Assembly: GCA_016193385.1 (NCBI GenBank)
Contig: JACPSF010000299.1
Coordinates: 1-20,216 of the forward strand
DNA: 20,216 nucleotides
Reading direction: 5' to 3'
Origin: Deltaproteobacteria bacterium
GTDB lineage: Bacteria > Desulfobacterota_B > Binatia > UBA9968
Position 1 is the first letter of the stretch; every line of letters starts with the position of its first letter. The notes beneath the pieces were generated by a model. It was not told the DNA's origin and ran no database searches. It saw only the letters and a program-made list of their open reading frames with translations. Below, one piece after another: positions 2,517 through 19,350 of this stretch. The position numbers were made by a program, and so were the translations under genes.

Positions 2517-2530
2517 GGAAAGGAGGGAGC

Positions 2531-3251: not shown

Positions 3252-3268
3252 GGCTCGGAGGAGGTTTC

Positions 3269-4348
3269 GTGCAGGGCGACTACAGCTACGGGAACGCCCG
3301 GGTCCGAGCCATGAGAGGGCGCTTGCTCGACGCGCGGGTCTACGGCGATCTGCTGGCAGCCGCCAGCATCGATATGGTCATCGAGACGCTCGTGCGGACC
3401 GCGTACCGGGAAACCATCGAAGCGACGTTGGTCAAATACGGCGGCATGAAGTGCGTGGCCGAGGCGCTGCGCCTTGACTTGGCGCGCACCGTCGGCAGAA
3501 TCAAGCTCTTCTTCGAAGGCCGACCGCGAGCGCTCGTGGCCATGCTGCTTTCACGCTGGGACATGAGGAATCTGATGGCGGTACTGCGGGGCCAGGCGCG
3601 CGGCGTGGCGGCGGAGGAGATTCTCGATGCGGTCGTGCCGGCCGGTGAGTTGACCGAGGCGGAGTTGCGCGAAATGGCTTGGCAGCCGAGCATCCGCGCC
3701 ACCGCGGATCTGATGTTCACGTGGCGTATTCCCCATGCCGGCGCGCTGGGCGAAGCGCTTCGGACTTCGAGTGGCGATTTGGCCGATATCGAGACCAGGC
3801 TCAATCGGCTCCGGTACGGCGAGGCGTTGGCCCGGCTGGGACACGAGATGAACGAAATGCTGGTGCGGGAGATGCTTGAGGCTGAAATTGATGTGGCGAA
3901 CTTGACTGCTCTCATCCGGCTGTTGAGCCTGGGCGATCGCAGGGCGAAGCTTCGGGCCCGCTATGGTTCAGCGGACCCGATGACGCTTCTGATCGAAGGC
4001 GGCGGGCTTTCGCCGCGCGTATTAAGCGCGTTGAGCGCTGCGGAGGATGTGGAATCGATGGTGCGCGACTTGAGCGGGACCACCTATGGGACGGCTTTGA
4101 TGAACCGTTGGGAGACATACCGGCAAAGCGCTGATGCGGCCGTCCTTGAGCGCGGCCTGGAGGAGTTCCTCGTGCTCAAGGGTATCCGCATGTTCCACCG
4201 GGATCCGCTGAGCATCGCGATTCCGACTGGATATATCTGGGCCAAAGCGAACGAGGTCGTCAACATGAGGCTGATCGCCCAGGGAAAGGCGCTCGGCTGG
4301 GATCGCGATTCGATTCATACGGAATTGATTTGGTGGGTAAGGGAGTAG
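3269..4348 (+). CDS. atpC: A/V-type ATPase subunit C (d), rotor-shaft adaptor
   Basis: Subunit C (AC39/d family) is the funnel-shaped adaptor joining the central shaft (D/F) to the rotor ring. The product is 359 residues, all helical and soluble, the usual length. It opens with QGDYSYGNARVRAMRGRLLD, typical of the family N-terminus, and ends with YIWAKANEVVNMRLIAQGKA, a conserved C-terminal motif. The GTG start at 3269 is supported by GGAGGAGG at 3257-3264. The gene follows subunit E and stops 4 nt before the subunit F start, with GGGAG (4341-4345) spanning its end, so the two are probably translationally coupled. Confidence 0.92.
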   Translation: MQGDYSYGNARVRAMRGRLLDARVYGDLLAAASIDMVIETLVRTAYRETIEATLVKYGGMKCVAEALRLDLARTVGRIKLFFEGRPRALVAMLLSRWDMRNLMAVLRGQARGVAAEEILDAVVPAGELTEAELREMAWQPSIRATADLMFTWRIPHAGALGEALRTSSGDLADIETRLNRLRYGEALARLGHEMNEMLVREMLEAEIDVANLTALIRLLSLGDRRAKLRARYGSADPMTLLIEGGGLSPRVLSALSAAEDVESMVRDLSGTTYGTALMNRWETYRQSADAAVLERGLEEFLVLKGIRMFHRDPLSIAIPTGYIWAKANEVVNMRLIAQGKALGWDRDSIHTELIWWVRE

Positions 4349-4352
4349 ACGC

Positions 4353-4685
4353 ATGGCCAAACTCGCGGTGATTACGGACGCCACCTTGGCGGTCGGTTTC
4401 TCCCTGGCGGGGGTGGAGGTGCATGCGATGAGCTCTCCGGAGGAGGCCAAGCGCGTTCTCCTTCGGCTCATGAGCGAGGCGGATATGGGCGTGATCGCCA
4501 TCAACTCGGGCTACCTGAACGCGCTTGACGGGATGACGCGGCGGCGGGTGAGCGAGAGCACGAAGCCGGTGATCGTGGGCTTGCCGAGCGGCATGCCCAC
4601 GGTGCCGGAGGAAAGGCGCAGCCGGCAGATCGCCGAGTTGATTCGGCGCGCCATCGGTTTTCGCATTACGTTCCCGGGAGGATAG
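4353..4685 (+). CDS. atpF: A/V-type ATPase subunit F (central shaft)
   Basis: Subunit F sits on the central shaft with subunit D. The 110-residue product has the family's Rossmann-like pattern: LAVITDATLAVGFSLAGVEV at the start, then GVIAINSGYL in the middle, and KPVIVGLPSG further on. Length and order are normal. The ribosome site GGGAG at 4341-4345 is 7 nt from ATG 4353. An 80-nt spacer separates it from subunit A, the widest gap inside the ATPase cluster, and it holds short inverted repeats (see the repeat at 4687-4727). Confidence 0.92.
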   Translation: MAKLAVITDATLAVGFSLAGVEVHAMSSPEEAKRVLLRLMSEADMGVIAINSGYLNALDGMTRRRVSESTKPVIVGLPSGMPTVPEERRSRQIAELIRRAIGFRITFPGG

Positions 4686-4686
4686 C

Positions 4687-4727
4687 CTTGAACTGTTTGG
4701 ACGTTTTGAACTCTGCGTCGGTTCAAG
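4687..4727. repeat. TTGAAC/GTTCAA inverted repeats in the F-A spacer
   Basis: TTGAAC occurs at 4688-4693 and 4706-4711, and its complement GTTCAA at 4721-4726. Two alternative stems are possible: a 6-bp stem with a 9-nt loop (4706-4711 with 4721-4726), or a 7-bp stem CTTGAAC/GTTCAAG (4687-4693 with 4721-4727). The spacer precedes the catalytic subunit gene, so an effect on expression balance is conceivable. No T-tract follows, so it is not an obvious terminator. Confidence 0.35.
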
Positions 4728-4765
4728 CCGTTTAAGCCGCAAGGGATCGGATTGGGGCTGGGAAA

Positions 4766-6541
4766 ATGACCAGATCAGCCGCAGCACGGGGTATGCTTCG
4801 CCGCATCGCCGGGCCGGTGGTCGTGGCGGACGGATTGCGTGGAGCGCGTGTGGGCGATGTCGCCCGCGTCGGCGAGGCCGGGTTGATTGCCGAGATTATT
4901 CGCCTGGAGGGGGATCAGGCTACCCTCCAGGTCTATGAGGACACGGTTGGTCTCAGAGTCGGCGAAGCGGCCGTCTCCAGCGGAGAGCCGTTAATGGCTG
5001 AACTGGGGCCGGGCTTGCTAGGTTCTATTTTCGACGGGCTGCAACGGCCTTTACCTGAAATCCAGAAACAGATGGGCCCCTTCATCCACAAAGGCGCGAC
5101 AGCGCCCGCCCTGTCACGGGCGCGGCGCTGGCCGTTTACGCCGGCAGTGAGAGAGGGCGATCGCGTCGGGCCCGGTGACGTCCTCGGCACCGTTCCTGAG
5201 ACGCCGCGACTTACCCACAAGATCTTGGTTCCCCCCGGTGTGCGGGGCCATGTTGCGGAGATTTGCCGCGGCGAGTTCACCGTTGAGGATGCTGCAGCGC
5301 TGGTCGAGATCGGCGGAAGCAAGCCAGTCGTCGAGATCGGGCTCAAGCAGCGCTGGCCGGTGCGCCAGGGCCGGCCTTATCAGCGTAAGCTCTCGCCCAA
5401 TATGCCCTTGATTACCGGCCAGCGCGTAATCGACACTTTCTTTCCGGTCGCCAAGGGGGGCACCGCGGTCATTCCCGGAGGGTTCGGCACGGGCAAAACG
5501 GTCATGGAGCAGACGCTGGCCAAGCGCGCCGAAGCAGAAATAGTAGTCTATGTCGGCTGCGGCGAGCGGGGCAACGAGATGACCGAGGTATTGGCTGAAT
5601 TTCCCTGCCTGGTCGACCCGCGGGCCGGCGTAACCCTGATGGAGAGGACCGTCCTTGTGGCCAACACGTCCAACATGCCCGTGGCGGCGCGCGAGGCTTC
5701 CATCTACACCAGTCTCACCATCGCCGAGTACTATCGCGACATGGGCTGTGATGTCGCACTGATGGCCGATTCCACTTCCCGTTGGGGCGAGGCCCTGCGC
5801 GAGGTCTCCGGCCGCTTGGAGGAGATGCCGGCGGAGGAAGGTTATCCGGCTTATCTGGGCTCACGTCTGGCCGGCTTTTACGAGCGCGCCGGCCGCGTCG
5901 TTTGCCTGGGTCAGGACAGCCGCGAGGGCTCGGTGACGATCATCGGCGCCGTGTCGCCTCCGGGGGGTGACTTTTCGGAACCCATGACTCAGAGCTCTCT
6001 ACGCGCTGCGGGTACTTTCTGGGGCCTGGATGTCAACCTGGCGCGCCGGCGTCACTTTCCTTCTATTCATTGGATGACGAGCTATTCGCTCTACGAGCTC
6101 AGCCGCTGGTTTGACGAGTGCGTCGCCCCGGATTGGCAGGAGCAGGCGCGGCTGGCCATGTCGCTTTTGCAAAGGGAAGAGGAACTCACGGAGATCGTGC
6201 AACTGGTCGGCAGCGAGGCCATGCCGGACGCTGAAAAGGCGATTTTGCACGTGGGGCGCTTGCTGCGCGAAGACTATTTGCAGCAATCCGCCTTTGACGC
6301 GGTCGATGAGTTCTGTCCGCCGCTGAAACAGTACTGGATGCTGCGGGCCATCCTGGCTTTTTACCGAGAGCTGGCGGAGGCGTTGGGCCGGCGTGTGGCC
6401 CCGGTCCAAGCCATGGCCCTGCCGGCGCTGGGCGAGATCGCGCGCATGAAAGAGCTCCCGGCGGAAAAGGCCGAGCGTGAAATCCGGGGGTTGATTGAGC
6501 GAATCCACGAGAGTCTTGCGACGTTATCTGAGGGAAAATAA
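4766..6541 (+). CDS. atpA: A/V-type ATPase catalytic subunit A
   Basis: This is the catalytic nucleotide-binding subunit, alternating with B in the A3B3 head. The product has 591 residues, the expected size for A with its extra bulge domain. The N-terminal beta barrel contains RRIAGPVVVADG; the non-homologous region is at about 110-190. The Walker A loop is GGFGTGKT at 238-245 (Lys244), followed by VGCGERGNEMTEVL (conserved catalytic glutamate region), ALMADSTSRWGEALRE (Walker B) and GAVSPPGGDFSEP. The P-loop reads GGFGTGKT where GPFGSGKT is commoner, a mild variation. Start ATG 4766 is used; ATG 4793 in the same frame (MLRRIAGPVVV), preceded by ACGGGG, is an equally plausible start. Confidence 0.96.
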   Translation: MTRSAAARGMLRRIAGPVVVADGLRGARVGDVARVGEAGLIAEIIRLEGDQATLQVYEDTVGLRVGEAAVSSGEPLMAELGPGLLGSIFDGLQRPLPEIQKQMGPFIHKGATAPALSRARRWPFTPAVREGDRVGPGDVLGTVPETPRLTHKILVPPGVRGHVAEICRGEFTVEDAAALVEIGGSKPVVEIGLKQRWPVRQGRPYQRKLSPNMPLITGQRVIDTFFPVAKGGTAVIPGGFGTGKTVMEQTLAKRAEAEIVVYVGCGERGNEMTEVLAEFPCLVDPRAGVTLMERTVLVANTSNMPVAAREASIYTSLTIAEYYRDMGCDVALMADSTSRWGEALREVSGRLEEMPAEEGYPAYLGSRLAGFYERAGRVVCLGQDSREGSVTIIGAVSPPGGDFSEPMTQSSLRAAGTFWGLDVNLARRRHFPSIHWMTSYSLYELSRWFDECVAPDWQEQARLAMSLLQREEELTEIVQLVGSEAMPDAEKAILHVGRLLREDYLQQSAFDAVDEFCPPLKQYWMLRAILAFYRELAEALGRRVAPVQAMALPALGEIARMKELPAEKAEREIRGLIERIHESLATLSEGK

Positions 6542-6589
6542 CGGGGCCGGACCGGTGCGGTGCCCCGCATCCCGGCCGCGGAGCAGGTG

Positions 6590-8020
6590 ATGATGCAACC
6601 AACGGCAAGGCGTCCGCTCTTCGCCAAGGAATACTGCACCGTGTCCTGCGTAGCGGGGCCGCTCTTGTTTATTGAGCGCGTAAGCGATATCGGACACGGC
6701 GAGATCGTGGAAGTTTTCTCGGGCGATGGAGAGATGCGCCGTGGTCAGGTGCTCGAAGTCAACGGCGATCGCGCCGCAGTGCAGGTGTTTGCCGGCACTC
6801 GCGGTTTCGCTGTGGAGACGACACGGGCCCGCTTCACGGGCGAAGTAGCACGCCTCGGCGTCGGCCTGGAGATGCTTGGCCGCATTTTCGACGGCTCAGG
6901 TCAGCCGGTGGACGGGGGACCGGCCCTGATTGCAGAGAAACAGATCGAGGTCGCCGGGCTTCCCATCAATCCCTGCGCGCGCGATCACCCGGTGGACTTT
7001 ATCCAGACGGGTTTCTCGGCCATCGACGGGCTCAATACACTGGTGCGAGGGCAGAAACTTCCCATTTTTTCCTGCTTCGGTTTGCCGGCGGCGGAGGTGG
7101 CGGCTCAAATCGCGGTCAGTGCCAAGGTGATCGAACAGGAGGAGGTAGGGGAGGCAAGACAGCCCTTCGCCGTGGTGTTTGCGGCCATCGGGATCACTCA
7201 TCGTGAGGCTTCCTACTTTCGCGCCCAGTTTGAGGAGAGCGGTTCCCGCGACCGCACCGTATCGTTTCTCAACCTCGCTGATGATCCCACAGTGGAGCGC
7301 GTCCTGGTGCCTCGATTGGCGCTCACCGCGGCGGAATACCTCGCGTTCGAGCGGGATATGCACGTTCTGGTTATCATGACCGACATGATCAACTACGCTG
7401 AGGCGCTACGCGAGATCGCAACGGCCCGCGAAGAGGTCCCCGGCCGGCGCGGCTACCCCGGGTATCTTTACAGCGATCTCGCCGCTCTCTACGAGCGGGC
7501 GGGGCGCATCAAGGGCAAAAGGGGCTCGATTACGCAGCTCATCATCTTGACGATGCCGGACGACGACATCACGCATCCGGTGCCAGACTTGACCGGCTAT
7601 ATCACGGAAGGCCAACTCGTGCTGTCGCGCGACTTGCACCGCAGGGGCATCTACCCTCCGATCGACGTGTTACCGAGCCTCTCGCGCTTGATGAACGCCG
7701 GTATTGGCTCCGGGAAGACGAGGGAGGACCACCGCAGCGTGGCCGATCAGCTTTACGCCTTGTACGCGCAGGGCCGCGACCTGCGCCGGCTGGTGGCCAT
7801 CGTCGGCGAGGCGGCGCTGTCGGCCGAAGACCGGCTCTATCTGGATTTCGCCGACCGGTTCGAGCAGCGTTTCGTTCACCAGGGACGGCGGTCTCGGGAA
7901 CTCAGGGAAACTTTAGATAACGCCTGGGATTTGTTGTCCATGATGCCGGCGGCGTCGCTTAAGAGAATCCGGTCCGAATTTATCCAAAAATACCACCGCG
8001 GCGGAGGCGCCCGTGACTGA
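6590..8020 (+). CDS. atpB: A/V-type ATPase regulatory subunit B
   Basis: This is the non-catalytic partner of subunit A in the hexameric head. It resembles A in fold but lacks a P-loop: where A has the Walker motif, B has [18 protein letters not shown]. Other family marks are [76 protein letters not shown] and the downstream [15 protein letters not shown]. From ATG 6590 it is 476 residues, near the family norm, with GGAG at 6580-6583; a GTG at 6560 in the same frame would add ten non-conserved residues. It ends inside the start of subunit D (8-nt overlap), pointing to translational coupling. Confidence 0.95.
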
Positions 8021-8714
8021 GCGCGTCGCACCCACCCGTATGGAATTGCTGGCCAGAAGAGGGCAGATCGCTCTGGCCAGGCAGGGCCGGGATTTGCTTA
8101 AAGAGAAGCGCGACGTGCTCATGAAGCAGTTTATGAAAGTAGCCGAGCTCGTGATCGTGAGCAGCGACGAGCTCGAGCGCTTAGCCGCGGCCGCGAGGCA
8201 CGCGCTGGCATTGGCCGAGGCGGTGGAGGGGGACGATGCGGTCCGCTCGGCCTCCTTCGCGGCCCGTGGCGAAGTCTCCCTCACCTTGGAGCGAGGTCAG
8301 CTCATGGGTGTGTCGGTGCCGCTCATCGAGAAAAGGAGCCTGTCCCGCTCGTTGCTGGACCGGGGCTATAGCCTGGCCGGCAGCTCCGCCCGGATTGACC
8401 GGGTGGCGCAACGTTTTGAGGACGAATTGAGCCTCGTCGTCGAGATTGCCGCGAGCGAGGCGCGGCTGCGCCGCCTGATCGAGGAGATCCGGCAGACTAG
8501 CCGACGCGTCAACGCGCTGGAGCACAGGACGCTCCCGTGTCTTGAGGCCGAGCGGGACTACATCGAGATGGTGCTGCAAGAGCGGGAGCGAGAGGATAAC
8601 TTTCGACTGAAGCGGGTCAAAGGGAAGCTGCGACGCGGGAGCCGCCACCGACCGGACCGCCCTCGGGCCCCTCGGGGGGATGTCGAGTTGAATTCTGTAA
8701 CGCCCGGTTCCTGA
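8013..8714 (+). CDS. atpD: A/V-type ATPase subunit D (central shaft)
   Basis: Subunit D is the coiled-coil axle that turns inside the A3B3 head. The 233-residue product starts with [18 protein letters not shown] and [10 protein letters not shown], the family N-terminal helix, and has the matching C-terminal helix with [20 protein letters not shown]. The GTG start at 8013 overlaps the B stop and has GGAGG at 8003-8007. The last about 25 residues are Arg/Pro-rich and not part of the conserved fold. It completes the nine-subunit set. A GC-rich hairpin (CGGTTCC/GGAGCCG at 8705-8722) covers its stop codon but lacks a T-tract, so read-through into the cytochrome genes 23 nt downstream is likely. 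Confidence 0.93.
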
Positions 8715-9439: not shown

Positions 9440-9956
9440 GATCCGGCGGGTAGAAATGGAGCGTTGGCGGCTTGAGATTGTTCGCGAGTGCGGCACGTGC
9501 CACGCGCAGTCGCTGCGCACCTACCGGGATACTTTCCACGGACAGGTGACCTCTCTGGGATTTACGCGGGTGGCGCGCTGCTCGGACTGCCACGGAGCCC
9601 ACGACATCCTCGCCAAGTCCGATCCCCGCTCTTCCGTGGCGCCGAGCCGGGTCGTGGCCACCTGTCGCAAATGCCACCCGCAGGCCAGCGCCAACTTTGC
9701 CAAATACGACCCTCACGCCGATGATAGAGATCGCGCCCGTAACCCGGTCCTGTACTACGCCGCCCGTTTTATGACCTGGCTGTTGGCCGGGGTGTTTTTC
9801 TTCTTCGGCATTCATACTGCTGTTTGGGCCGCGCGTCCGCTCATTGCTCGGTTTGTGAAAAAGCGACCGAGGAAAGAGGACGGAGACGAACCGCCCGAGC
9901 CCGGGGGGGAAGGTGGGGGGGAGCACGAACCAAAGGAGGGGAGTTCTCGTGGCTGA
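9222..9956 (+). CDS. Multihaem cytochrome c, C-terminal part with membrane anchor
   Basis: This is the second half of the cytochrome starting at 8738. It has six more CXXCH sites (Cys7, 35, 65, 90, 120, 148 counted from codon 9222), giving 11 for the joined protein. Repeats carry YADSVHGRA and YRDTFHGQV between haem pairs. A single membrane helix (about 182-204, rich in Phe and Trp) ends in Arg/Lys, so the haem domain faces the periplasm. A Gly/Glu/Pro-rich cytoplasmic tail follows. The TTG at 9222 is only the first possible start in this frame and probably not a real one. The 3' end overlaps the cytochrome b gene (GTG 9949) by 8 nt. The pair suits a quinol:cytochrome module in which cytochrome b feeds or drains this multihaem protein. 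Confidence 0.8.
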   Translation: MLVAANCSSCHGSHGILPASDPQSTVHKTNIPETCGRCHAGVLRVYADSVHGRAVKGGNPIAPVCIDCHTAHEIRRVEMERWRLEIVRECGTCHAQSLRTYRDTFHGQVTSLGFTRVARCSDCHGAHDILAKSDPRSSVAPSRVVATCRKCHPQASANFAKYDPHADDRDRARNPVLYYAARFMTWLLAGVFFFFGIHTAVWAARPLIARFVKKRPRKEDGDEPPEPGGEGGGEHEPKEGSSRG

Positions 9957-10773
9957 GTATTACTTCCGGTTTTCTCTTGGCCAGCGTCTTTTGCACGGTC
10001 TTTTGGTCTTGACCTTTCTTGGCCTGGTCGCTACCGGCATGCCGCTACGCTACAACCAAGCGGGCTGGGCCATCTGGCTCTCTCACACTCTGGGTGGGTT
10101 CGGTGTCATGGGATTTTTTCACCGCACCTTCGCCGTGCTTCTAACTCTGTGCTTTTTTCTCCATCTTGGGCCGATTCTTTACCGCTTCCTCGTGCGTAGA
10201 GAAGCAGGGATACTGTGGGGTTCGGACTCTCTGGTGCCGCAGCCCAATGATTTCAAAGAATTTTACGGGCACCTCAAATGGTTCCTGGGCTTGGGGTCCA
10301 GACCAGCGTTTGGTCGCTTTGCCTACTGGGAGAAGTTCGATTATTGGGCGGTCTTCTGGGGTATGGCGATCATCGGGACCACCGGCTTTATGCTCTGGTT
10401 CCCGGGCTTTTTTTCCGCGTTTCTCCCCGGTTGGATCTTCAACGTGGCCTTGGTTATTCACGGGGAAGAGGCTTTGTTGGCCGCTGGGTTTATCTTTGCC
10501 ATCCATTTTTTCAACAGCCACATCAGGCCGGAAAAGTTTCCCATGGACCTGGTGATCTTCACAGGGAGAGTGAGCAGAGACGAGCTTCAGGAGGAGAGGC
10601 CCGCCGAGTATGCCAGGCTTTCTCGACTCGGCGCTTTGACGAGCGTGAAAACGGAGCCGCCGCCGCGCTGGATGAAGAACCTCTCGTGGATTCTCGGCGG
10701 CGTTAGCATCGCGATCGGTTTGGCACTTTTCTGTCTGATCCTTTTTGCGGTCCTGACCGGAGGAAGAGAATAA
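9949..10773 (+). CDS. Membrane cytochrome b (formate dehydrogenase gamma / b561-like)
   Basis: Di-haem quinone-reactive membrane subunit, 274 residues. There are four main hydrophobic segments (about 17-33, 58-80, 132-150, 165-188) plus a C-terminal one (about 247-270). Candidate haem ligands are His16, His46, His58, His72, His171 and His186. [10 protein letters not shown] (191-200) after the fourth helix is a motif I associate with this cytochrome b family found beside multihaem cytochromes. I chose GTG 9949 because AAAGGAGG (9932-9939) sits upstream and the protein then begins [16 protein letters not shown], as in relatives; the longer in-frame start at 9913 lies inside the cytochrome c tail. 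It probably exchanges electrons between menaquinone and the cytochrome c just upstream. Direction is not determinable. Confidence 0.85.
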
Positions 10774-10832: not shown

Positions 10833-12317
10833 ATGTCATCTAAGGTCAAGATGATTCTGGGGATCGGGGCGATCATGCTGGCAGTAATTGTAGCCTACGT
10901 AATCGTTACCGCGAGGAGCCAAGCGAATCATCTGTTGAATCTCACTCGGCGCGAGGCGGAGTTAGTCGCTGCCGTAACGGAGCGGGCGATTGCGCTAGCG
11001 ATGACAGAGGGAAAGAGCCAGGAGGTTCAGGCAATCCTCGAACAGATCAGCAAGGTTCCGCAACTTGCGGGGATCAGAATTGTGGATTCCGACGGCACTA
11101 TCATTCGCTCGAGCAGTCCGGGGGAAACAGGCCAGATCCTTGCGCAAGAGGACCGGCTTGAGGAGGGCAAGGTGCCAGAGCCGCTCTGGAATCATGCCGA
11201 GGGGACGATCGGAATCTTTCGCCCCATCCCGAACCGACCGGTCTGCCACACCTGTCATTCTCAGGATCGTGCATCGATTGCATTCCTGAGCGTGCGCCTT
11301 GGTTTGCCGAGTGCCGGATCTCAGATATCCCAGCAATGGAAGGTCATGGTCCTCCCCGCCGTGCTCGCCCTCGTTGCCGCGGGCGGCTTGATTGCCATTT
11401 ATTTCACGCTCGTGATCGGTCGGCGTATCGATACCTTGTCCCAAGCCATGAGCCGGGTTGAGGCCGGAGATCTTTTGGCCAAAGCCCCAGAGGGCGACCG
11501 GGATGAGCTGGGGCGGCTCGGAAAGAGTTTTAACTCCATGATGGGCCGACTGGCCGAGGCCCAACGCCAACTGGAGGACCGCCACGCGGATGAAGTCCGG
11601 CGGGCGGAGCACCTGGCCTCTCTTGGAAAAATGGCAGCCGGGATCGCACATGAAATCAATAATCCCCTTGCGGGCATGCAGAACTGCATTAGGACTCTCC
11701 TCAAAGGCGCCAGAGAGGAGGCGCAGCGAGTGCAATACCTGACAATGCTCCAGGAGGGGCTGAGCCGCATCGGTCGGACCATCAGGCAACTCCTGGACTT
11801 CGCACGTGAGAGGAAACCCCAACTGACTCGAACCCATTTCCCACCCCTTCTTCACCGTTCCATGGCCCTTTTGGAGCACGAGCTGGCGGCCAAGAAGATC
11901 TCCTGCTCTTTGTCTACGGAATCCGGGCTTCCCGCGCTCCTAGCTGACCCGCACCAGCTTGAACAAGTCTTTCTCAATATTCTGATGAACGCCGTCGAAG
12001 CTATGCCGAGCGGAGGGAGCCTTACGGTGACGGCTGGAGTTCGACGCCGTCAAGCCGGCTCTTGGATAGAGGTCTCGGTCGCCGACACGGGAGTCGGAAT
12101 TCCCGCCGAGAACCTGCCTCGCGTCTTTGATCCCTTTTTCACCACCAAAGAGGTTGGCAAGGGGACAGGGCTCGGGCTCTCGGTGAGCTACGGGATCGTG
12201 AGGGCTCACGGCGGCGTCCTTGAGGTTCAGAGCGAGGTTGGAAAGGGGAGTACCTTCACAGTTATCCTTCCGTTGACAAGAGAAGGGGAGGGCCAATGCG
12301 CCACCGTGTCCTCCTAG
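10833..12317 (+). CDS. Membrane histidine kinase with periplasmic CXXCH haem motif
   Basis: Sensor kinase of 494 residues. Order: TM1 (about 7-27), periplasmic sensor (about 28-170), TM2 (about 172-194), HAMP (about 190-245), HisKA with H-box [12 protein letters not shown] (His273), and the HATPase domain with N-box (Asn386), DTGVGI and GTGLGLS. The sensor ends in [17 protein letters not shown], where Cys138-Cys141-His142 make a c-type haem attachment motif. This implies a haem- or redox/gas-responsive sensor matured by the cytochrome c machinery. It overlaps the regulator gene by 22 nt, so the two form a pair. A 59-nt gap separates it from the cytochrome b gene. The signal is unknown. Confidence 0.93.
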
Positions 12318-13639
12318 TTGAAGATGAGCCAATCCTTCAGGTGACGCTGGCGAACGACCTTGCCGAAGAGGGATATGAGGTCGCCACCGCGTCGGACGGA
12401 GCGCAGGGGCTTCGCCTCATCCAGGAGAGAGCATTCGACGTGGCCCTTCTGGATCTGAAGCTTCCCAAGGTGGATGGACTCGCCTTGCTCCAGAGCTTTA
12501 AAGCCGAGAGCCCTTCTGGTATCGCCATTATGATGACGGCCTACGGGACTATCCAGTCGGCGGTGGCGGCGATGAAAGCAGGGGCCACTGACTACCTCGT
12601 GAAGCCGTTTCCCACGGACGATCTCCTCATTCTCCTCCGCGGCCTCCTAGCTGGGCGTGCGGCCTGGTCTGAGCAGGGGCCGGGTCCATCTGAGGCCCGC
12701 AGATTCGGCGACCTTGTTTACGCGAGCGGAAAGATGGCCGAGGTTTGCGACCTTATCGCCACCGTGGCCCGGAGCGATGCCACCGTCTTGATCCAGGGAG
12801 AAACGGGCACGGGAAAGGAGTTGGTTGCCCGTGCCGTCCATCAGGCAAGCCCCCGGCAATCCTTCCCGCTCATTAACGTTGCGTGCGCAGCGATTCCAGA
12901 GTCCCTGCTGGAGACGGAGCTTTTCGGTCACGAGAAGGGCGCGTTTACGGGAGCGATCCGGGACCGAAAGGGACGCTTTGAGCTGGCTCATCGTGGGAGC
13001 CTCTTCCTGGACGAAGTCGCCGATCTAGGATCGGCAGTCCAAGCCAAGTTGCTCAGAGTCCTCCAGGAAAAGGAGTTCGAGCGGGTCGGCGGGAGCCAAA
13101 CTATCAAGATCGACGTCCGGCTTATCTCCGCCACCCGTAAACGGTTGGAAGACGAAGTCTTAGCCGGACGCCTCCGTGAAGACCTTTTTTACCGCCTCAA
13201 GGTGATCACCGTTACCCTCCCTCCTTTGAGAGAGCGCAAAGAAGACATCCTCCCGCTGGCCGAGCACTTTCTCGAGAAGTACCGCCGCCCGCTGGGAAAG
13301 GAGATTCGGGGTCTTACCCCCGAAGCCTGCGGCTGTCTCCTCTCCTACGACTGGCCCGGAAACATCCGGGAGCTGGAGGCAGGGATCCAGCGAGCAGTCA
13401 CCCTGGCGAAAGACACTGTCCTCACGCCCGACGACTTTCCCCTGGAGGGTATCGTCATGTCTGCCGATCCGCCCGGTGAGCCGGCTCGCTCTCTCACCGA
13501 TGCGATCCGGGAGGCTGAACGACAGTACCTGCAAGGCGTCCTCCGGAGCGTCGGTGGTCAACGAAAGCGCGCGGCCGAAATCCTGGGGATGAGCCGAAAG
13601 ACTCTCTGGAAGAAGCTGAAGTCCCTGGGTCTAGAATAA
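12296..13639 (+). CDS. NtrC-family sigma-54-dependent response regulator
   Basis: Transcription activator of 447 residues. The receiver domain (1-115) has phosphoacceptor Asp53 in LLDLKLPKVDG, acidic pair Glu9/Asp10, Thr81 and Lys103. The AAA+ domain has Walker A GETGTGKE (168-175), the sigma-54-contacting GAFTGA loop (215-220) and Walker B GSLFLDE (234-240). The Fis-type helix-turn-helix at the end contains AAEILGMSRKTLWKKLKSLG. ATG 12296 lies inside the kinase gene and is preceded by GGGGAGGG. The intact GAFTGA loop means it should act on sigma-54 promoters; candidates occur at 13720, 14093 and 18520. It most likely responds to the kinase it overlaps. Confidence 0.95.
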   Translation: MRHRVLLVEDEPILQVTLANDLAEEGYEVATASDGAQGLRLIQERAFDVALLDLKLPKVDGLALLQSFKAESPSGIAIMMTAYGTIQSAVAAMKAGATDYLVKPFPTDDLLILLRGLLAGRAAWSEQGPGPSEARRFGDLVYASGKMAEVCDLIATVARSDATVLIQGETGTGKELVARAVHQASPRQSFPLINVACAAIPESLLETELFGHEKGAFTGAIRDRKGRFELAHRGSLFLDEVADLGSAVQAKLLRVLQEKEFERVGGSQTIKIDVRLISATRKRLEDEVLAGRLREDLFYRLKVITVTLPPLRERKEDILPLAEHFLEKYRRPLGKEIRGLTPEACGCLLSYDWPGNIRELEAGIQRAVTLAKDTVLTPDDFPLEGIVMSADPPGEPARSLTDAIREAERQYLQGVLRSVGGQRKRAAEILGMSRKTLWKKLKSLGLE

Positions 13640-13719: not shown

Positions 13720-13735
13720 TGGCAGCGATCTTGCA
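13720..13735 (+). promoter_or_regulatory. Sigma-54 (-24/-12)-like promoter before the orphan HTH gene
   Basis: TGGCAGCGATCTTGCA fits TGGCA-N6-TTGCA, with GG (13721-13722) and GC (13733-13734) 12 bp apart. The implied start near 13746 leaves only about 6 nt before ATG 13752, room for little more than AGGA, so the message would be nearly leaderless. No clear dyad is seen between 13640 and 13719. Confidence 0.5.
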
Positions 13736-13751: not shown

Positions 13752-13976
13752 ATGAGCAAGAAAGTGCTGACCTCAGCCTCTGAGGCGGAGGTCGGGGACC
13801 GGCGGCTGAGCACAGTCCGTGAAAAGGCGGAACGGAAGCACATCGTCTCCATCATCCGTCTCGCGAAAGGCAATCGGGCTCAAGCGGCTCGGATTCTGGG
13901 GATTAGTCGGAAGACCTTGTGGAAAAAGCTCAAGCACCTTGGCGGGGCTAGCTCTCCTGATGTTACTAAAAGGTAA
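13752..13976 (+). CDS. Orphan Fis-type helix-turn-helix protein
   Basis: A 74-residue protein consisting of little more than a Fis/NtrC-type DNA-binding domain. Residues about 24-64 contain ERKHIVSIIRLAKGNRAQ and AARILGISRKTLWKKLKHLG, nearly identical to AAEILGMSRKTLWKKLKSLG at the end of the regulator 110 nt upstream. It has no receiver or AAA+ domain. The recognition helix is shared, so it should bind the same or similar sites, and it might compete with or modulate the full-length regulator. The first GTTAC/GTAAC dyad (13961-13978) covers its stop codon, which could give feedback. It could also be a remnant of a partial duplication, but the frame is clean. Function is inferred from similarity only. 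Confidence 0.72.
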   Translation: MSKKVLTSASEAEVGDRRLSTVREKAERKHIVSIIRLAKGNRAQAARILGISRKTLWKKLKHLGGASSPDVTKR

Positions 13977-14039
13977 CGGATCTCGACTGCATGTTACCTT
14001 TCGGTAACATGGTCAGATCGAGTTCTCCGCCTGAGTAAC
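13961..14039. promoter_or_regulatory. Phased GTTAC/GTAAC activator-site array (31-bp period)
   Basis: Site 1 is TGTTACTAAAAGGTAACG (13961-13978). Site 2 is TGTTACCTTTCGGTAACA (13992-14009), whose perfect dyad extends to 9-bp arms over 13990-14011. GTAAC recurs at 13973, 14004 and 14035, exactly 31 bp apart each time, so a degenerate third site with only its right half is centred near 14031. A 31-bp step is close to three helical turns, placing the sites on one face. They lie about 150, 119 and 88 bp before the start site implied by the promoter at 14093-14108, as expected for NtrC-type enhancers. Confidence 0.65.
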
Positions 14040-14044
14040 GTGTT

Positions 14045-14062
14045 TGTCCAAGTTTTTGGACA
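14045..14062. promoter_or_regulatory. TGT-N12-ACA dyad, possible further activator site
   Basis: TGTCCAAGTTTTTGGACA has 7-bp arms (TGTCCAA/TTGGACA) and a 4-nt centre. It shares the TGT-N12-ACA frame with site 2 of the upstream array but not its GTTAC core. Its centre is 53 bp from that of site 2, about five helical turns, and about 66 bp before the implied start site. It may bind the same regulator weakly or a different one. Confidence 0.45.
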
Positions 14063-14092
14063 GTTACCCCTCTCAGCTTCGAAGCTTTCCTC

Positions 14093-14108
14093 TGGCATCG
14101 GAATTGCT
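14093..14108 (+). promoter_or_regulatory. Sigma-54 (-24/-12)-like promoter of the molybdoenzyme operon
   Basis: TGGCATCGGAATTGCT matches TGGCAY-N5-TTGCT, with GG (14094-14095) and GC (14106-14107) at the required 12-bp spacing. The implied start site is near 14119, about 65 nt before ATG 14185. The phased dyads directly upstream make this the best-supported promoter in the window. Confidence 0.7.
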
Positions 14109-14184: not shown

Positions 14185-15102
14185 ATGAAAAAATTGAGTG
14201 TCACGAAAAAAGCTGAGGAGCGGCGGAACTTTCTCAAGACCGTTTTGGCTGGTGCGGTTATAGGAGCAGGCCTTTTGGCCAAACGGGAAAGGGCAGAGGC
14301 CGCCTCCAGCGAAAAGCCACTACCTGAGCTTCCCGATGGAGAGAGTCCGCTTCTACGTATGCAGCGTGATCTGCAAAGGGCATTAAGAAAGCCGGTCGAC
14401 GAGAGACGGTGGGTCATGGTGATTGACCAGAGAAAATGCGTTGGCTGCAACGCTTGCAGAGTAGCTTGCGTGACAGAAAATGCGCTACCGCCTGGGGTGA
14501 CGTACCGCACGGTGCCCGAGACGCAAAGCGGCGAGTACCCCAAGGTGAGCCGCTTTTTCATGCCTACCCAATGTATGCAGTGCGACAAGCCTCCGTGCCT
14601 TGGGGCAGCCAATGCCGTCTCTCGAGGGTCCATTACCAAGCGGCCCGACGGGATCGTAGCCATTAACTACCGGAAGTTTCGAGGGCGAAAGGCGTTTCAG
14701 GCTGCGGTTAAAGCCTGTCCGTTTAAAGCTCTCTACTACGACGACGGGCGCTTCTTCACTGAGGGAACGCCAGCCTTTCAGCCCTACGAGAAAAGAGAGA
14801 GCTACGACTACGGGGCGGTGTGGAAGCGGGTTAAAGGTCAGAATGATCCTCCCATCGGCGGGGGCAGGAAGTGCCATTTCTGTCTGCATCGATTGACCGC
14901 TAGCATGCTTCCCGTATGCGTGACCACATGTATTGGGCGAGCAGCATTTTTTGGCGATCTTAACGATCCCCAAAGTCTGGTGAGCGAGCTTTTAGAAAAG
15001 AACAGGGCAAAGGTAGTGCGCATTCGGGAGAATCGCGGCACCGAGCCCAGGGTCTATTACATTGTGGATGATCCTGCCCTAGCTGCGGCCTACCATACTT
15101 AG
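14185..15102 (+). CDS. Tat-exported iron-sulfur subunit of molybdoenzyme, one cluster lost
   Basis: Electron-transfer (beta) subunit, 305 residues, related to TtrB/PsrB/DmsB. The Tat signal is EERRNFLKTV (Arg13-Arg14) followed by a hydrophobic stretch. Full-size relatives have 16 ligand Cys in four motifs. Here motif I (Cys85, 88, 91, 95), three of motif II (Cys130, 133, 138), the last of motif III (Cys178) and motif IV (Cys230, 233, 245, 249) remain. The fourth Cys of motif II is replaced (Ala142) and motif III CxxCxxC reads FRGRKAF (165-171). In the known fold those four residues bind one and the same cluster, so three clusters should remain. ATG 14185 (after GGGGGTGAT) is the start, downstream of the promoter; the longer TTG-started frame from 14044 would run across it. 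The stop abuts the ribosome site of the catalytic subunit. Confidence 0.88.
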   Translation: MKKLSVTKKAEERRNFLKTVLAGAVIGAGLLAKRERAEAASSEKPLPELPDGESPLLRMQRDLQRALRKPVDERRWVMVIDQRKCVGCNACRVACVTENALPPGVTYRTVPETQSGEYPKVSRFFMPTQCMQCDKPPCLGAANAVSRGSITKRPDGIVAINYRKFRGRKAFQAAVKACPFKALYYDDGRFFTEGTPAFQPYEKRESYDYGAVWKRVKGQNDPPIGGGRKCHFCLHRLTASMLPVCVTTCIGRAAFFGDLNDPQSLVSELLEKNRAKVVRIRENRGTEPRVYYIVDDPALAAAYHT

Positions 15103-15114: not shown

Positions 15115-18100
15115 ATGAAGAAGAAAACTTTAATTAGCCAAGGGATTGATCGAAGAGAGTTCTTAAAGTGCGGCGCCTTCCTAGGAGGAACGGCCTTCTT
15201 AAGTCAGGTGGCACAGAATAGTCTCTTCCCCCGGCTGGTAGAAGCTGGAGAGGTTGTGCCAGGCTTGGAATATCCTTTGGCCAAAGCGGAGAACATCCTT
15301 TACAGCGTGTGCCAGCAGTGTAATGCCCAGTGCGGCATCAGGGCTAAGATTAAGGATGGGGTTGTGGTGAAAATTGATGGAAGTCCCTTCAGTCCATGCG
15401 GCATGAATCCGCATCTTTCGTACAAGACCCCAATATCACAGGCTGCAACGGTGGATTCCGCCCTTTGCCCCAAGGGCCAGGCGGCTATCCAGACTTCCTA
15501 CGATCCTTACCGGGTGATCAAGGTTCTAAAAAGAGCCGGTCGCAGAGGCTCCAACCGATGGATAACCATTCCTTTTGAGCAGGCCATCAATGAGATTGCT
15601 AATGGCGGCAAGCTCTTTTCCCATGTGCGGGGAGAAGAAAAGCGAGTTGTCAGTGGTCTTAAGGAGATTTGGGCTCTAAGGGATGCCAAAGTTGCCGGGG
15701 CAATGGCCAATGACGTGAAGGTCATCATGGGCAAAAAAACGGCCGAAGAGAAAAAAAGGGCCGTGGAAGAGTTCAAAGCCAAACACAAAGACTACTTGCA
15801 TACTCTGATTGACCCTGAGCATCCAGACCTGGGTCCCAAGAATAACGAGCTCGTCTTTGTCTGGGGGCGGTTAAAGTCCGGTCGCGGGGACCTCATCAGC
15901 CGCTTTACCAAGGATGCTTTTGGCTCGGTGAATGCTCATGGCCACACAACGGTTTGCCAGGGTTCCCTCTACTTCACCGGCAAGGCCATGAGCGAGCAGT
16001 ACGTCGACGGCAAATGGGGCGGAGGCAAGAAGTTCTTCTGGCAGGCCGACCAACAGGGATCTGAGTTTATCATCTTTGTCGGCGCCAATCCTTTTGAGGC
16101 GAATGTCGGCCCCACTTTCCGCACGCAACGAATCACGGATGGCCTTGTCAGCGGTCGGTTAAAATTTGCGGTGATAGACCCGCGCCTCTCTAGGACAGCA
16201 GCTTTGGCCTGGAAATGGCTGCCGAATAAGCCTGGAACAGAGGCTGCTATAGCCTTGGCCATGATCCGATGGATTATCGACAACAAACGCTTCGAGGAGC
16301 GCTATCTACGCAATGCCAACAAGGCAGCGGCGGGGGCGGATAAGGAACCTAATTGGTGCAATGCTTCCTGGCTCGTGCGCCTAGACAAAGAGGGAAAGCC
16401 GGGAGGACTCCTCCGCGCCTCGGAGGTGGGGCTTGCCGCAAAGGAGAGTCGCAAGACAAGCGATGGAAAAGGAACGTACGAATTCGATCCGTTCGTGGTC
16501 TCGGTTAATGGGCGCTTTATTCCCTTTGATCCCAATGACAGCAAAAACCCCGTCGAGGGCGACCTCTTTGTGAATAGTGAAACAGGAGGAGTGAGGGTCA
16601 AGAGCGCACTGCAAATTCTCCATGAGGAGGCATCTGCCCATACGATTGAGGAATGGGCAGAAATGTCGGGGCTCAAGGCCGAAGACCTGGTGGAGCTGGC
16701 TCGGGAGTTCACAAGTCATGGTAAGAAAGCTGCTGCAGAGATCCACCGGGGTGTCTCCCAGCACACCAATGGCTTTTACAACTGCACAGCTTGGTATTCC
16801 TTGAACCTGCTTATCGGCAACTATGACTGGAAAGGTGGTATGGCTCAGGCCTCCACTTATGACCATTTTGGGAGCAGGGCTGGTAAGCCCTTCCCCATCG
16901 GGAGGATGCATCCGGGGAAGATCCCCAACTTCGGCATCAGCATTATTCGCCACGATATGAAATATGAGGATACAACCCTCTTTTCTGGTTACCCTGCTCG
17001 GAGGGCCTGGTACCCCTTGGCGAGCGATATCTATCAGGAGATTATCCCGTCGGCCGGCGATGCCTATCCCTATCCGATCAAGGCTCTATTCATCTACATG
17101 GGGACGCCTGTCTATTCGCTCCCTGCCGGTCATACCAACATCGAGATCCTGGCAGATGTGAAAAAGATTCCTCTCATCGTAGCCAACGATATCACCATAG
17201 GCGAGACCTCCATGTACGCCGACTATATCTTCCCAGACCAAGCCAATTTGGAGCGGTGGGAGTTCGCGGGTTCCCATCCGTCGATAATCTGGAAGATGCA
17301 GCCGATCCGCCAGCCGGTGATCGCCACGCCTAACGAGACCGTGAAAGTCTTCGGTCAGGAGATGCCTTGCAGTCTGGAGGCTTTGCTGCTTGGTGTGGCG
17401 GAAAAATTGGGCCTGCCGGGATTCGGCCCAGGAGGGCTAGGGGAAAAGGGAGACTTGCTCAGGGCCGAGGACTTCTATCTGCCCATGGTAGCCAATGTGG
17501 CCTTTGGTGATAGAGCTGACGGTTCGGATGCGGTGCCGGATGCTGACGACCGGGAGGTGGAGCTGTTTTTGAAGGCCCGCCGGCACCTGCCAAAAAGCGT
17601 TTTTGATCCTAAACACTGGCAGACCGTATTAGGGGAGAAGTGGTGGAGGAAGGCTGTCTATGTTCTTAATCGAGGCGGGCGCTACGATGATTTTGCCAAT
17701 GGGTACGATTCGGAGCAATTGAAAAACAGGCACGGTACCCTGATCAACCTCTATCAGGAGAAAACCGCCACGACTAAGCATAGCATGACGGGTAAACCAT
17801 TCTCCGGGGTCGCAACCTATCTTCCCGCTCCTACCGATGTGCTTGGCCGTCCGGTGGCGGATGAAGGCTACGACCTCACGCTTATTACCCATCGGGAAGT
17901 AACCCAAACCAAGAGCCGAACCATCAGTAACTACTGGCTACTGGGCGTTCTCCCTGAGGGGATCTTTGTCATCAGCACGGCCGATGCACAGCGCTTGGGT
18001 TTCAAAAATGGGGATCGGGTAAAGGTCCTCTCTGCCAGTAATCCAGAGGGCGTGTGGGACCTTAAGAACGGCCATAAGAAGGCCATGATCGGGGAGCTGA

Positions 18101-18345
18101 CCGTTACCGAGGGAATTCGCCCCGGTGTTGTAAGCTTTTCCTTGGGCCACGGCCACTGGGCCTATGGGGCTAGTGATGTGGTGATCAATGGCAAAAGAAT
18201 CCGTGGTGATAAAAGGAGAGATAAGGGGATACACGCCAATGCTGCCATGCGCGTCGATCCTGTTCTCAAGAATACCTGCCTCTCCGACGTGACCGGTGCC
18301 AGTGCGGTTTTCTACGACACCAGGGTGAAGCTGGTAAAAGTCTAG
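15115..18345 (+). CDS. Molybdopterin oxidoreductase catalytic subunit (TtrA/ArrA/SrdA-like)
   Basis: Periplasmic catalytic subunit, 1076 residues. Tat signal IDRREFLKCG (Arg13-Arg14). The N-terminal [4Fe-4S] motif is Cys66-x2-Cys69-x3-Cys73...Cys118. HTTVCQGSLYFTGKA places Cys281 as the likely Mo ligand. Long shared blocks such as LGPKNNELVF, EFTSHGKKAAAEI, GFYNCTAWYSLNLLIGNYDW and GDAYPYPIKALFIYMG, and the length, resemble tetrathionate reductase TtrA and the related selenate/arsenate reductases. The C-terminal molybdopterin-binding domain is complete. AGGAGGT at 15101-15107 supports ATG 15115. The partner is the iron-sulfur subunit just upstream. The substrate is unresolved: a sulfur, selenium or arsenic oxyanion is likely by family, acting as terminal acceptor or in reverse. 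Confidence 0.9.
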   Translation: MKKKTLISQGIDRREFLKCGAFLGGTAFLSQVAQNSLFPRLVEAGEVVPGLEYPLAKAENILYSVCQQCNAQCGIRAKIKDGVVVKIDGSPFSPCGMNPHLSYKTPISQAATVDSALCPKGQAAIQTSYDPYRVIKVLKRAGRRGSNRWITIPFEQAINEIANGGKLFSHVRGEEKRVVSGLKEIWALRDAKVAGAMANDVKVIMGKKTAEEKKRAVEEFKAKHKDYLHTLIDPEHPDLGPKNNELVFVWGRLKSGRGDLISRFTKDAFGSVNAHGHTTVCQGSLYFTGKAMSEQYVDGKWGGGKKFFWQADQQGSEFIIFVGANPFEANVGPTFRTQRITDGLVSGRLKFAVIDPRLSRTAALAWKWLPNKPGTEAAIALAMIRWIIDNKRFEERYLRNANKAAAGADKEPNWCNASWLVRLDKEGKPGGLLRASEVGLAAKESRKTSDGKGTYEFDPFVVSVNGRFIPFDPNDSKNPVEGDLFVNSETGGVRVKSALQILHEEASAHTIEEWAEMSGLKAEDLVELAREFTSHGKKAAAEIHRGVSQHTNGFYNCTAWYSLNLLIGNYDWKGGMAQASTYDHFGSRAGKPFPIGRMHPGKIPNFGISIIRHDMKYEDTTLFSGYPARRAWYPLASDIYQEIIPSAGDAYPYPIKALFIYMGTPVYSLPAGHTNIEILADVKKIPLIVANDITIGETSMYADYIFPDQANLERWEFAGSHPSIIWKMQPIRQPVIATPNETVKVFGQEMPCSLEALLLGVAEKLGLPGFGPGGLGEKGDLLRAEDFYLPMVANVAFGDRADGSDAVPDADDREVELFLKARRHLPKSVFDPKHWQTVLGEKWWRKAVYVLNRGGRYDDFANGYDSEQLKNRHGTLINLYQEKTATTKHSMTGKPFSGVATYLPAPTDVLGRPVADEGYDLTLITHREVTQTKSRTISNYWLLGVLPEGIFVISTADAQRLGFKNGDRVKVLSASNPEGVWDLKNGHKKAMIGELTVTEGIRPGVVSFSLGHGHWAYGASDVVINGKRIRGDKRRDKGIHANAAMRVDPVLKNTCLSDVTGASAVFYDTRVKLVKV

Positions 18346-18595
18346 AACTGGAAGTAACACCACTCGAAGAAAGGAGAAACCAACCATCGTAGCGCTCTAT
18401 CTAATTGAGGTACGCCGCTCTCTATTCTGGTATCGGCCTTTTCCCAAAAAAGAGAATCCAATCGATCTCGGTTGTTTGTATTCTGTAATAAAATTAGGGA
18501 CTTACTTATCTCCTAAGCTTGGCACAAATCGTGCTAAATCTTCGAGCCCGTCAGCGGCGAGAAGGAAAGGGGGAATATCGTCACGCGCAAAATGA
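18338..18595 (+). other. Open frame with a good ribosome site but no usual start codon
   Basis: AAGGAG at 18371-18376 is followed 9 nt later by ATCGTAGCG where an ATG would be expected. The frame then stays open for 69 codons (IVALYLIEVRRSLFWYRPF...) to TGA at 18593-18595. No ATG or GTG is available at the expected place. It may be a gene whose start mutated (ATG to ATC), a rare AUC start, a decayed gene, or chance. The sigma-54-like element at 18520-18535 lies inside it, which argues against a conserved protein. The rest of the 246-nt spacer shows no other clear gene. Confidence 0.3.
18520..18535 (+). promoter_or_regulatory. Sigma-54 (-24/-12)-like promoter before the octahaem cytochrome
   Basis: TGGCACAAATCGTGCT has a perfect TGGCAC -24 half and GTGCT instead of TTGCT at -12, with GG (18521-18522) and GC (18533-18534) 12 bp apart. 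The implied start site is near 18546, about 46 nt before ATG 18592. No GTTAC-type dyad is seen upstream. Confidence 0.5.
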
Positions 18596-19350
18596 CAAGG
18601 GAAATGATGCGAGGTGTGTTAAGAAAAATTCCTGAGCAGATAAGAAGACTTTCTATTGTCATCGCAATCATCATTGCGGGGGTTGTCACGGCACGATATG
18701 TCATCCTGCCGTCTTCTCTTACAGATAGGCGATTCCATCGAGAATCCACCGCACAGAGAGAAGTTGCAAAAAATATCGTCTTCGCGGGCGCGACTATTTG
18801 CGGCAATTGCCATGTCGACCAGGCCGCCAAGAAAAAGGACGGTTTCCATAAAAACGTCTCCTGCGAAACCTGTCACGGGCCCGCGCAGGCGCATATAGAA
18901 AATCCCTCAACCAAGCCTACCGCGCCGAGGGGCAGGGACTTCTGTGTTTTTTGTCACGCTTATGATCCATCGAGACCCACCGGATTTCCTCAGATCAATC
19001 CCGTTCTCCACAATCCGATTAAGGCTTGTATAACGTGTCACAACCCTCATGACCCGGTACCTCGGGAGACTCCGCGGGAATGTTCCGCCTGTCATGCGCA
19101 AATCGCAAGCATCAAAACCGTTTCCCCGCATGCGCTCATCGGCTGTACGAGCTGTCACAGCGTCCCGGTGAAACATAAGGTAACTCCGAGGAGCGTCAGG
19201 CCGACGAAGCCCGATACGCGGGAATTCTGTGGAAAGTGTCACGGGAAAGAATCCGACCGAAAGGATGCACCCAAGATAGACCTCGCCAGCCATGGTGAGA
19301 GGTTTCTCTGCTGGGAGTGCCATTATCCGCATCGGCCCGAGAGGATGTAA
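18592..19350 (+). CDS. Membrane-anchored octahaem cytochrome c
   Basis: Electron carrier of 252 residues with one N-terminal membrane anchor (about 20-40, SIVIAIIIAGVV) and eight CXXCH sites (Cys70, 91, 118, 146, 164, 185, 213, 240), the rest of the protein being periplasmic. Extra His residues (86, 101, 140, 153, 180, 195, 234, 247) are candidate distal ligands. I do not recognise a named family; spacing differs from the cytochrome at 8738, which has SVHGR repeats. The start is uncertain: ATG 18592, 18604 or 18607 (AAGGG at 18597-18601 would best serve 18607). It is followed 8 nt later by an iron-sulfur protein and then an NrfD-type subunit, the set found in periplasm-facing quinol-oxidising complexes (Nrf, Qrc or Act type). 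Confidence 0.85.
   Translation: MTREMMRGVLRKIPEQIRRLSIVIAIIIAGVVTARYVILPSSLTDRRFHRESTAQREVAKNIVFAGATICGNCHVDQAAKKKDGFHKNVSCETCHGPAQAHIENPSTKPTAPRGRDFCVFCHAYDPSRPTGFPQINPVLHNPIKACITCHNPHDPVPRETPRECSACHAQIASIKTVSPHALIGCTSCHSVPVKHKVTPRSVRPTKPDTREFCGKCHGKESDRKDAPKIDLASHGERFLCWECHYPHRPERM

Follow-up and report, generated by a model that had tools for sequence, protein, structure and literature searches.

Promoters of the sigma-54 type carry a -24/-12 element with the consensus TGGCAC-N5-TTGCW, transcription starting about 12 bp past the -12 part, and the GAFTGA loop contacts sigma-54. Among described systems, the closest operator found was that of CbrB of Pseudomonas, given in the accessible parts of the sources as TGTTAC-N12-14-GTAACA-N15-19-GTAACA, with subsites described there as non-palindromic and variable in spacing (PMC8871633, PMC6296734). 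The NifA-type UAS is TGT-N10-ACA in the accessible part of one of these papers (PMC6296734), and the HcpR2 motif is GTAAC-N4-GTTAC in the available text of PMC1274295.

The stretch of DNA analyzed here (the window) comprises 20,216 nucleotides from a Deltaproteobacteria bacterium (contig JACPSF010000299.1). Its two operator dyads read TGT-N12-ACA, with outer T/A that are not invariant, which is not the NifA-type UAS as quoted in that partial text. No paper on the operator pair, on an operator over a stop codon or on an HTH partner of an NtrC-type activator was recognized among the titles and abstract starts covered, most subscription journals lying outside this coverage, and a search of the accessible text of PMC3333781 for the terms GTTAC, GTAAC and stop codon gave no hit. 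For respiratory molybdoenzyme and dsr operons of lineages known chiefly from metagenomes, the locus offers an operator, a regulator and a regulatory logic that are open to testing.

Organization of the locus

The regulatory genes, the operator dyads, the -24/-12 elements and the molybdoenzyme operon are on the plus strand. The product of the sensor histidine kinase gene (10833-12317; Pfam HisKA, HATPase_c and HAMP) carries the c-type haem motif CxxCH near residue 138. This motif was present in all six kinases examined in modules with 31-bp pairs and absent from both kinases examined at loci with wider pairs (L043 and L058), and a kinase carrying it is probably a redox or gas sensor. The regulator gene (12296-13639) encodes receiver, sigma-54 AAA+ and Fis-type HTH domains, all above cut-offs (PF00072, PF00158, PF02954), and its translation contains GAFTGA and the recognition helix GMSRKTLWKK. 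By these domains and the GAFTGA motif it is assigned to the NtrC-family response regulators, with phosphorylation-dependent ATPase activity and DNA binding as predicted properties. A short gene (13752-13976) encodes a stand-alone Fis-type HTH protein of 74 amino acids, the mini-HTH (HTH_8, Pfam E 5.7e-13).

The operon downstream encodes a TtrB-like Fe-S subunit (14185-15102; Fer4_11; 130 bits against an NCBIfam TtrB cut-off of 416) and a TtrA-like molybdopterin oxidoreductase (15115-18345; Pfam; 459 bits against an NCBIfam TtrA cut-off of 1750). Both scores are well below those cut-offs, and the products are classed as TtrB-like and TtrA-like only. Elsewhere in the window (519-8714), a gene cluster resembles that of a V/A-type ATPase when the translations are read by eye, the ORFs at 4766 and 6560 being like those of the A and B subunits.

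Two exact copies of GTTAC-N6-GTAAC, dyad 1 (13962-13977, GTTACTAAAAGGTAAC, centre 13969.5) and dyad 2 (13993-14008, GTTACCTTTCGGTAAC, centre 14000.5), lie 31 bp apart, exactly where the initial annotation had placed them. It had also put the first dyad on the stop codon of the HTH gene, and TAA at 13974-13976 indeed falls within dyad 1. Most sites read GTTACC-N4-GGTAAC, the half-sites are separated by 6 bases in the two dyads of the window and in those of the relatives, and the outer T/A vary across sites. By eye, the inner spacers of 31-bp modules tend to CAA/GAA in dyad 1 and to TTC/TTT in dyad 2, which makes the pair roughly mirror-symmetric.

Copies of GTAAC occur at 13973, 14004 and 14035, as had been noted before. 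The one at 14035-14039, which lacks a left half, and a TGT-N12-ACA at 14045-14062 had been proposed as further regulator sites. Both are present, the second as a strand-neutral 7-bp inverted repeat (TGTCCAA-GTTT-TTGGACA), and their proposed role was rejected for want of conservation. The half-site was found in none of the six relatives with 31-bp pairs and is probably incidental; neither TGT-N12-ACA nor a 7-bp inverted repeat with a loop of 3-8 bases occurred within 90 bp downstream of dyad 2 in any of these six, leaving the repeat with no supported function.

Putative sigma-54 promoters

On both strands of the window, matches to 10 of the 11 consensus positions were found at 13720, 14093 and 18520 only. 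The element at 14093-14108 (TGGCATCGGAATTGCT, predicted start 14119), before the molybdoenzyme operon, is the one that the initial annotation had reported; the elements at 13720-13735 (TGGCAGCGATCTTGCA, predicted start 13746), directly 5' of the mini-HTH gene, and at 18520-18535 (TGGCACAAATCGTGCT) had been missed. The last precedes genes for a multihaem cytochrome (18592-19350) and for an Fe-S protein that is DsrO-like (193.5 bits, cut-off 200). No operator dyad was found near it, and another activator may be in use there.

Downstream of the operator pair, the best -24/-12 match covered 8-10 of 11 positions in each of 10 loci (the best of about 125 positions each). The distance from dyad 2 to the -24 element was 100 bp in the window, 80-82 bp in five relatives and 91 bp in L126, in steps of about one and two helical turns.

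All five loci in which a mini-HTH gene adjoins a regulator gene have an element with 9-10 of 11 positions 29-32 bp before the ATG. Measured from the start of the element to the first in-frame ATG, the distance is 32 bp in the window, 31 bp in L002, L116 and L117, and 29 bp in L125, predicting mRNA leaders of 6, 5, 5, 5 and 3 nt, respectively. The mini-HTH gene of L115, with no adjoining regulator, has no such element. The dyads lie about 224-255 bp downstream of the predicted mini-HTH start. From 700 bp upstream to 400 bp downstream of dyad 1 in the mini-HTH region, no site other than the pair exceeded 7.5 on the operator matrix, on which pair sites score 13-29. Since no other operator site is near, a promoter of the 13720 type would be activated from the downstream dyads or by another activator.

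Operator pairs in related genomes

A scan of genome contigs for molybdoenzyme relatives gave 248 stretches, the best 80 of which were kept as loci. Together with the window, these best 80 of 248 (1.286 Mb in all) contained nine exact dyads, two each in the window, L002, L043 and L058 and one in L071. The gene order of L002 is that of the window: kinase, regulator (78%), mini-HTH (60%), dyads at 31 bp, -24/-12 element and TtrB/TtrA. The locus with the closest enzyme (L001, 89%) had no regulator and no exact dyads in the roughly 1 kb covered before the TtrB-like gene, and no protein of its genome matched the regulator at more than 47%.

A mini-HTH profile detected three of 95 genomes at E <= 1e-18 (L115, L116 and L117), and in all three dyad 1 lies on the mini-HTH stop codon with dyad 2 exactly 31 bp further on. 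Lack of conservation of the pairs and their 31-bp spacing would have counted against the initial annotation, and they were kept in all five mini-HTH loci (window, L002, L115, L116 and L117) that were found without recourse to the dyads, through their enzyme or their HTH. The profile (A2) included the C-terminal tail and favours tailed proteins, and in first looks at most 61 or at most 19 candidates were scored per genome. In 22 further genomes with molybdoenzyme relatives it gave no match at E <= 1e-17, a result that carries no weight alone. In 297 genomes of the phylum of G001 it gave two at E <= 1e-18, G001 itself and G164, where the match is a 477-aa frame encoding a full regulator, not a mini-HTH.

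Searching with the regulator (E <= 1e-145) identified orthologs in six of 95 and two of 148 genomes, seven of them 70-78% identical and one 54%. The 31-bp pair was present in five of these eight genomes (G001, G532, G095, G096 and G014, the last with a degenerate second dyad). In G010 the regulator is 78% identical but lacks neighbouring dyads, its contig ending about 460 bp on, and the whole genome is without a pair; in G072 the regulator ends at the contig edge; and in G081 (54%) the only pair is degenerate, with a spacing of 24 bp. G011 holds a mini-HTH and a dyad pair with no regulator ortholog in the assembly (best match 46%).

The pattern of the 31-bp pair itself, with up to two mismatches, occurred in 4 of 95, 2 of 148 and 0 of 400 genomes, against 0, 0 and 1 genomes for reversed-pattern controls. 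Three exact pairs and G014 account for the 95-genome matches, and L002 and G532 for those among the 148 genomes of the class of L002; exact pairs in the 95-genome group were confined to the three genomes in which the mini-HTH was found. Both L125 (G532; kinase, regulator, mini-HTH, pair and -24/-12 element) and L126 (G014; the same set without a mini-HTH) came from this pattern and are no independent test of the 31 bp. The relatives named here are mostly metagenome assemblies. A large regulon was considered and rejected: ten genomes (about 43.7 Mb) gave 21 exact dyads (reversed control 11), of which 16 were at this locus type, and the other five (three in G532, two in G002) were unpaired and on different contigs.

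The operons behind the control region differ. They are TtrB/TtrA-like in the window and L002, dsr in L115, cytochrome plus TtrA-like in L116, ArrA-like (below cut-off) in L117 and L125, and FDH-like in L126. The L115 operon (G011:C183) includes dsrA, dsrB, dsrC and dsrM, all above cut-offs. About 2 kb upstream of the L115 pair, a gene for a YeiH-like transporter (80 bits, cut-off 232.6) has in front of it a second 31-bp pair (one mismatch in each dyad), followed at 102 bp by a -24/-12-like element. A short ORF before the ArrA-like gene of L125 (about 9924-10055) was seen by eye to start with MKKFNARKKGEERR, much as the TtrB-like proteins of the window and L002 begin; it is perhaps a remnant of an operon swapped behind the control region. 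The FDH-like catalytic gene of L126 (9754-10317) runs for 187 amino acids up to a TGA followed by CAC, with weak molybdoenzyme homology (19%) past the TGA, which is possibly a selenocysteine codon.

Association with a regulator subfamily

A general association of the dyads with NtrC-type regulators was rejected. The best 80 of the 248 loci include 12 regulators above 120 bits, and exact dyads were present only at L002, L043 and L058; with exact dyads at just three of 12 regulator loci, the dyads therefore mark a subfamily. When 30 Fis-type HTHs with loci were compared (of 68 matches in seven genomes, G001, G005, G006 and G007 having been chosen because they hold dyads), five had the helix SRK[T/N]LW[K/E]K. 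Dyads lay within 1.5 kb of four of these five (two at one locus) and of none of the 25 others. The fifth, L084, shares a contig with the L071 dyad, at a distance of about 20 kb, and the exact dyad of L071 has no full regulator adjoining it.

Among 295 genomes of the L058 group, a DNA pattern for wider pairs (55-85 bp gap) matched eight genomes (control 0 of 295), two of which (G005 and G006) are the already known L058 and L043 and six of which are new. Seven of the eight pairs are directly 3' of an NtrC-type regulator that is 46-48% identical to that of the window and has the helix GISRK[T/N]LWEK. At these seven loci the best -24/-12 match after the pair covers 8-11 of 11 positions, the 8 of L164 being weak; the eighth locus (L165) has a molybdoenzyme and no regulator within 1.5 kb. 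Spacings of the wider pairs are 82-99 bp, and the 31-bp spacing is therefore a trait of the window's regulator clade, not a general need. The earlier suggestion that all sites, including the TGT-N12-ACA, share one helix face is not supported, given the spacings in the L058 group and the lack of conservation of the third site.

On these results, the dyads are very probably the enhancer of this regulator subfamily. The initial annotation had read them as the enhancer of the adjoining regulator, driving the operon through sigma-54. This central reading is well supported by comparison, in that the dyads track regulators with SRK[T/N]LW and precede -24/-12 elements, and binding and activation are what one would predict from this. 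Comparison of the loci argues with good confidence for a real, conserved sigma-54 enhancer and for its assignment to the adjoining regulator subfamily.

Alternatively, the dyads could primarily be the mini-HTH's own operator, serving a local repressor or a positive architectural factor, with the two-component regulator acting elsewhere. In all six mini-HTH loci with DNA (L125 having been found by pattern), dyad 1 falls where the mini-HTH gene ends, and G011 combines a mini-HTH with two dyad pairs, at the dsr operon and the YeiH-like gene, and no regulator ortholog, both of which are consistent with this explanation. However, G014 (L126) and seven of the eight wider-pair loci have dyads, regulator and -24/-12 element, and no separate mini-HTH in the DNA read, making such an arrangement unlikely.

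The mini-HTH and the operator over its stop codon

The mini-HTH is the most unusual component of the locus, although the initial annotation had mentioned the orphan HTH only in passing. Its recognition helix is GISRKTLWKK; across 60 amino acids it shares 45% identity with the HTH of the regulator, and SRKTLWKKLK is identical in the two. Sharing the regulator's helix, it very probably binds the dyads.

Exact counterparts of dyad 1 are found at the mini-HTH end in L002, L115, L116 and L117, as well as in the pattern-found L125. In five of the six loci it is read as GTT ACN NNN NGG TAA C, i.e. V-T-x-R/G-stop. The operator of L125 is intact, but the end of the mini-HTH gene runs through it in another reading frame and gives a different peptide, which argues for selection on the DNA and not on the peptide. 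In long ORFs of the five in-frame loci (mechanically defined everywhere except in the window), GTT makes up 4-20% of valine codons, and TGA stops outnumber TAA in four of the five, the window being the exception. In L116 and L117, sequence weakly resembling a dyad at the stop codon of the regulator (0.4 and 2.4 on the operator matrix, against 13-29 for pair sites) was set aside.

A protein search with the mini-HTH returned 99 hits including itself (among 100 candidates), the other 98 being mostly small stand-alone Fis-type HTH proteins; many are on short contigs, and further fragments may be among them. The C-terminus was V-T-x-x in 59 (V-T-x-[R/G] in 55 of these) and A-T-x-[R/G], which needs one operator mismatch, in 20. 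The remaining 20 consist of two with LP-x-GN plus one or three residues, the second-frame reading of the operator (at the protein level only), two with IT-x-G, one each with ATIGQ and SIT, four resembling regulator fragments, and ten without a trace. The V-T-x-x and A-T-x-[R/G] tails appear to be what an operator over the stop codon yields, exactly or with one mismatch. Overlap of stop codon and operator would explain the VT-x-R/G tail seen at the protein level, selection probably being on the DNA.

The mini-HTH might instead be what is left of a duplicated regulator gene, decaying and functionless, so that the dyads alone are of importance. It does resemble the regulator C-terminus, and G014 does without it. 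Moreover, a degenerate dyad (GTTGCGGAAGAGTAAC) spans the regulator's own stop codon in G081, with a second degenerate dyad 24 bp on, before a TtrB-like operon; from this, the mini-HTH could plausibly have arisen by partial duplication of the regulator end and its dyads. A functionless remnant is nevertheless quite improbable. The dN values were 0.22-0.51 with dS of at least 0.89 in 14 of 15 pairs (dS 0.89-2.98 in 12, 0.44 in one and saturated in two), the recognition helix is invariant in 23 aligned members, and the mini-HTH's own promoter element is conserved. The dyad letters are unchanged while the mini-HTH codons are near synonymous saturation. In a weakly resolved HTH tree (49 columns), 14 of 16 orphans were on one branch apart from the regulators and the other two were unplaced, so that the mini-HTH looks old; at this resolution, recent duplication at each locus was rejected as its source. 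The orphan state requires three label changes in the tree, which neither shows nor excludes a single origin.

The dyads could also form RNA hairpins in the mini-HTH transcript, as an attenuator or a processing signal. Folding gave z = -3.9, with none of 200 shuffles as stable, but any pair of palindromes would behave likewise. This explanation is very improbable, since no terminator-like site was found, there was no Rfam match at gathering score, the same sites occur 3' of regulators where the mini-HTH is missing, and the letters are conserved beyond mere pairing.

Chance, or a general sigma-54 region without a specific regulator, is hardly tenable: the -24/-12 motifs are degenerate and dyads with up to two mismatches are not above chance in the window (two, chance mean 2.36), but exact dyads averaged 0.001 per dinucleotide shuffle of the window (one dyad in one of 1000, two in none), and the reversed-pattern controls and the conservation across genome groups argue in the same direction. 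As the loose count is ordinary, the evidence rests on exactness and pairing. A joint chance of 3e-15 assumes independent loci and a slot picked after looking, and is not relied on.

Proposed mode of regulation

We consider it likely that the dyads are the UAS of the regulator; they would serve two sigma-54 promoters, and the mini-HTH would provide negative feedback. The haem-motif sensor kinase would phosphorylate the NtrC-type regulator, dimers of which would assemble on the two dyads spaced by 31 bp and activate sigma-54 polymerase at 14093, leading to transcription of the TtrB/TtrA-like respiratory operon. Acting from downstream, the same dyads probably also serve the 13720 promoter, because they are the only such dyads in the window, and a nearly leaderless mini-HTH mRNA would result. 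With the same helix and neither receiver nor ATPase, the mini-HTH most likely occupies the dyads and damps the regulator.

Comparison of genomes shows that the dyads are conserved together with their spacing, their overlap with the stop codon and the two -24/-12 elements, and that they are linked to the regulator. What the model would add to these is binding, activation, the use of the downstream dyads at 13720 and, above all, the sign of the mini-HTH effect. Taken by itself, a negative effect of the mini-HTH is nearly evenly balanced, falling slightly short of probable.

At least two genome groups carry a mini-HTH and an operator pair before differing operons. The module may, tentatively and with some doubt, be regarded as a portable one-piece feedback device, in which the mini-HTH, whose stop codon carries the operator, is induced by the activator from this downstream site through a sigma-54 promoter of its own (3-6 nt leader) and then evicts the activator from the shared dyads, and which moves between TtrA-like, ArrA-like and dsr operons. 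A paralog of the activator that retains only DNA binding and is conserved together with the activator's enhancer would make a natural dominant-negative of a sigma-54 activator open to testing.

Comparison with known systems

The mini-HTH shares with Fis the HTH_8 domain and the form of a small stand-alone protein, and its profile matches, by sequence, the structures of Fis, ZraR and NtrC. It differs from Fis in its length of 74 amino acids, aligning just to the C-terminal part (about residues 53-97), and in sitting on a specific conserved operator; against the NCBIfam Fis model it scored 29.7 bits, below the cut-off of 99.

In the accessible text on HcpR2, the motif has similar letters, but its half-sites are in the opposite order and the regulator belongs to the CRP/FNR family. 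CbrB, as far as the available parts of its sources go, is more similar, with TGTTAC/GTAACA half-site letters and a sigma-54 dependent two-component activator. The window dyads, with an inner spacer of 6, do not match its pattern TGTTAC-N12-14-GTAACA, and those parts of the sources mention no stand-alone HTH partner.

With the NtrC-family (group I bacterial enhancer-binding protein) systems the locus shares a regulator composed of receiver, AAA+ (GAFTGA) and Fis-type HTH, and tandem dyads upstream of a -24/-12 promoter. It differs from them in the GTTACC-N4-GGTAAC operator arranged as a 31-bp pair, in the overlap of dyad 1 with a stop codon, and in having, between regulator and operon, a further HTH paralog that stands alone and is preceded by a -24/-12 element of its own.
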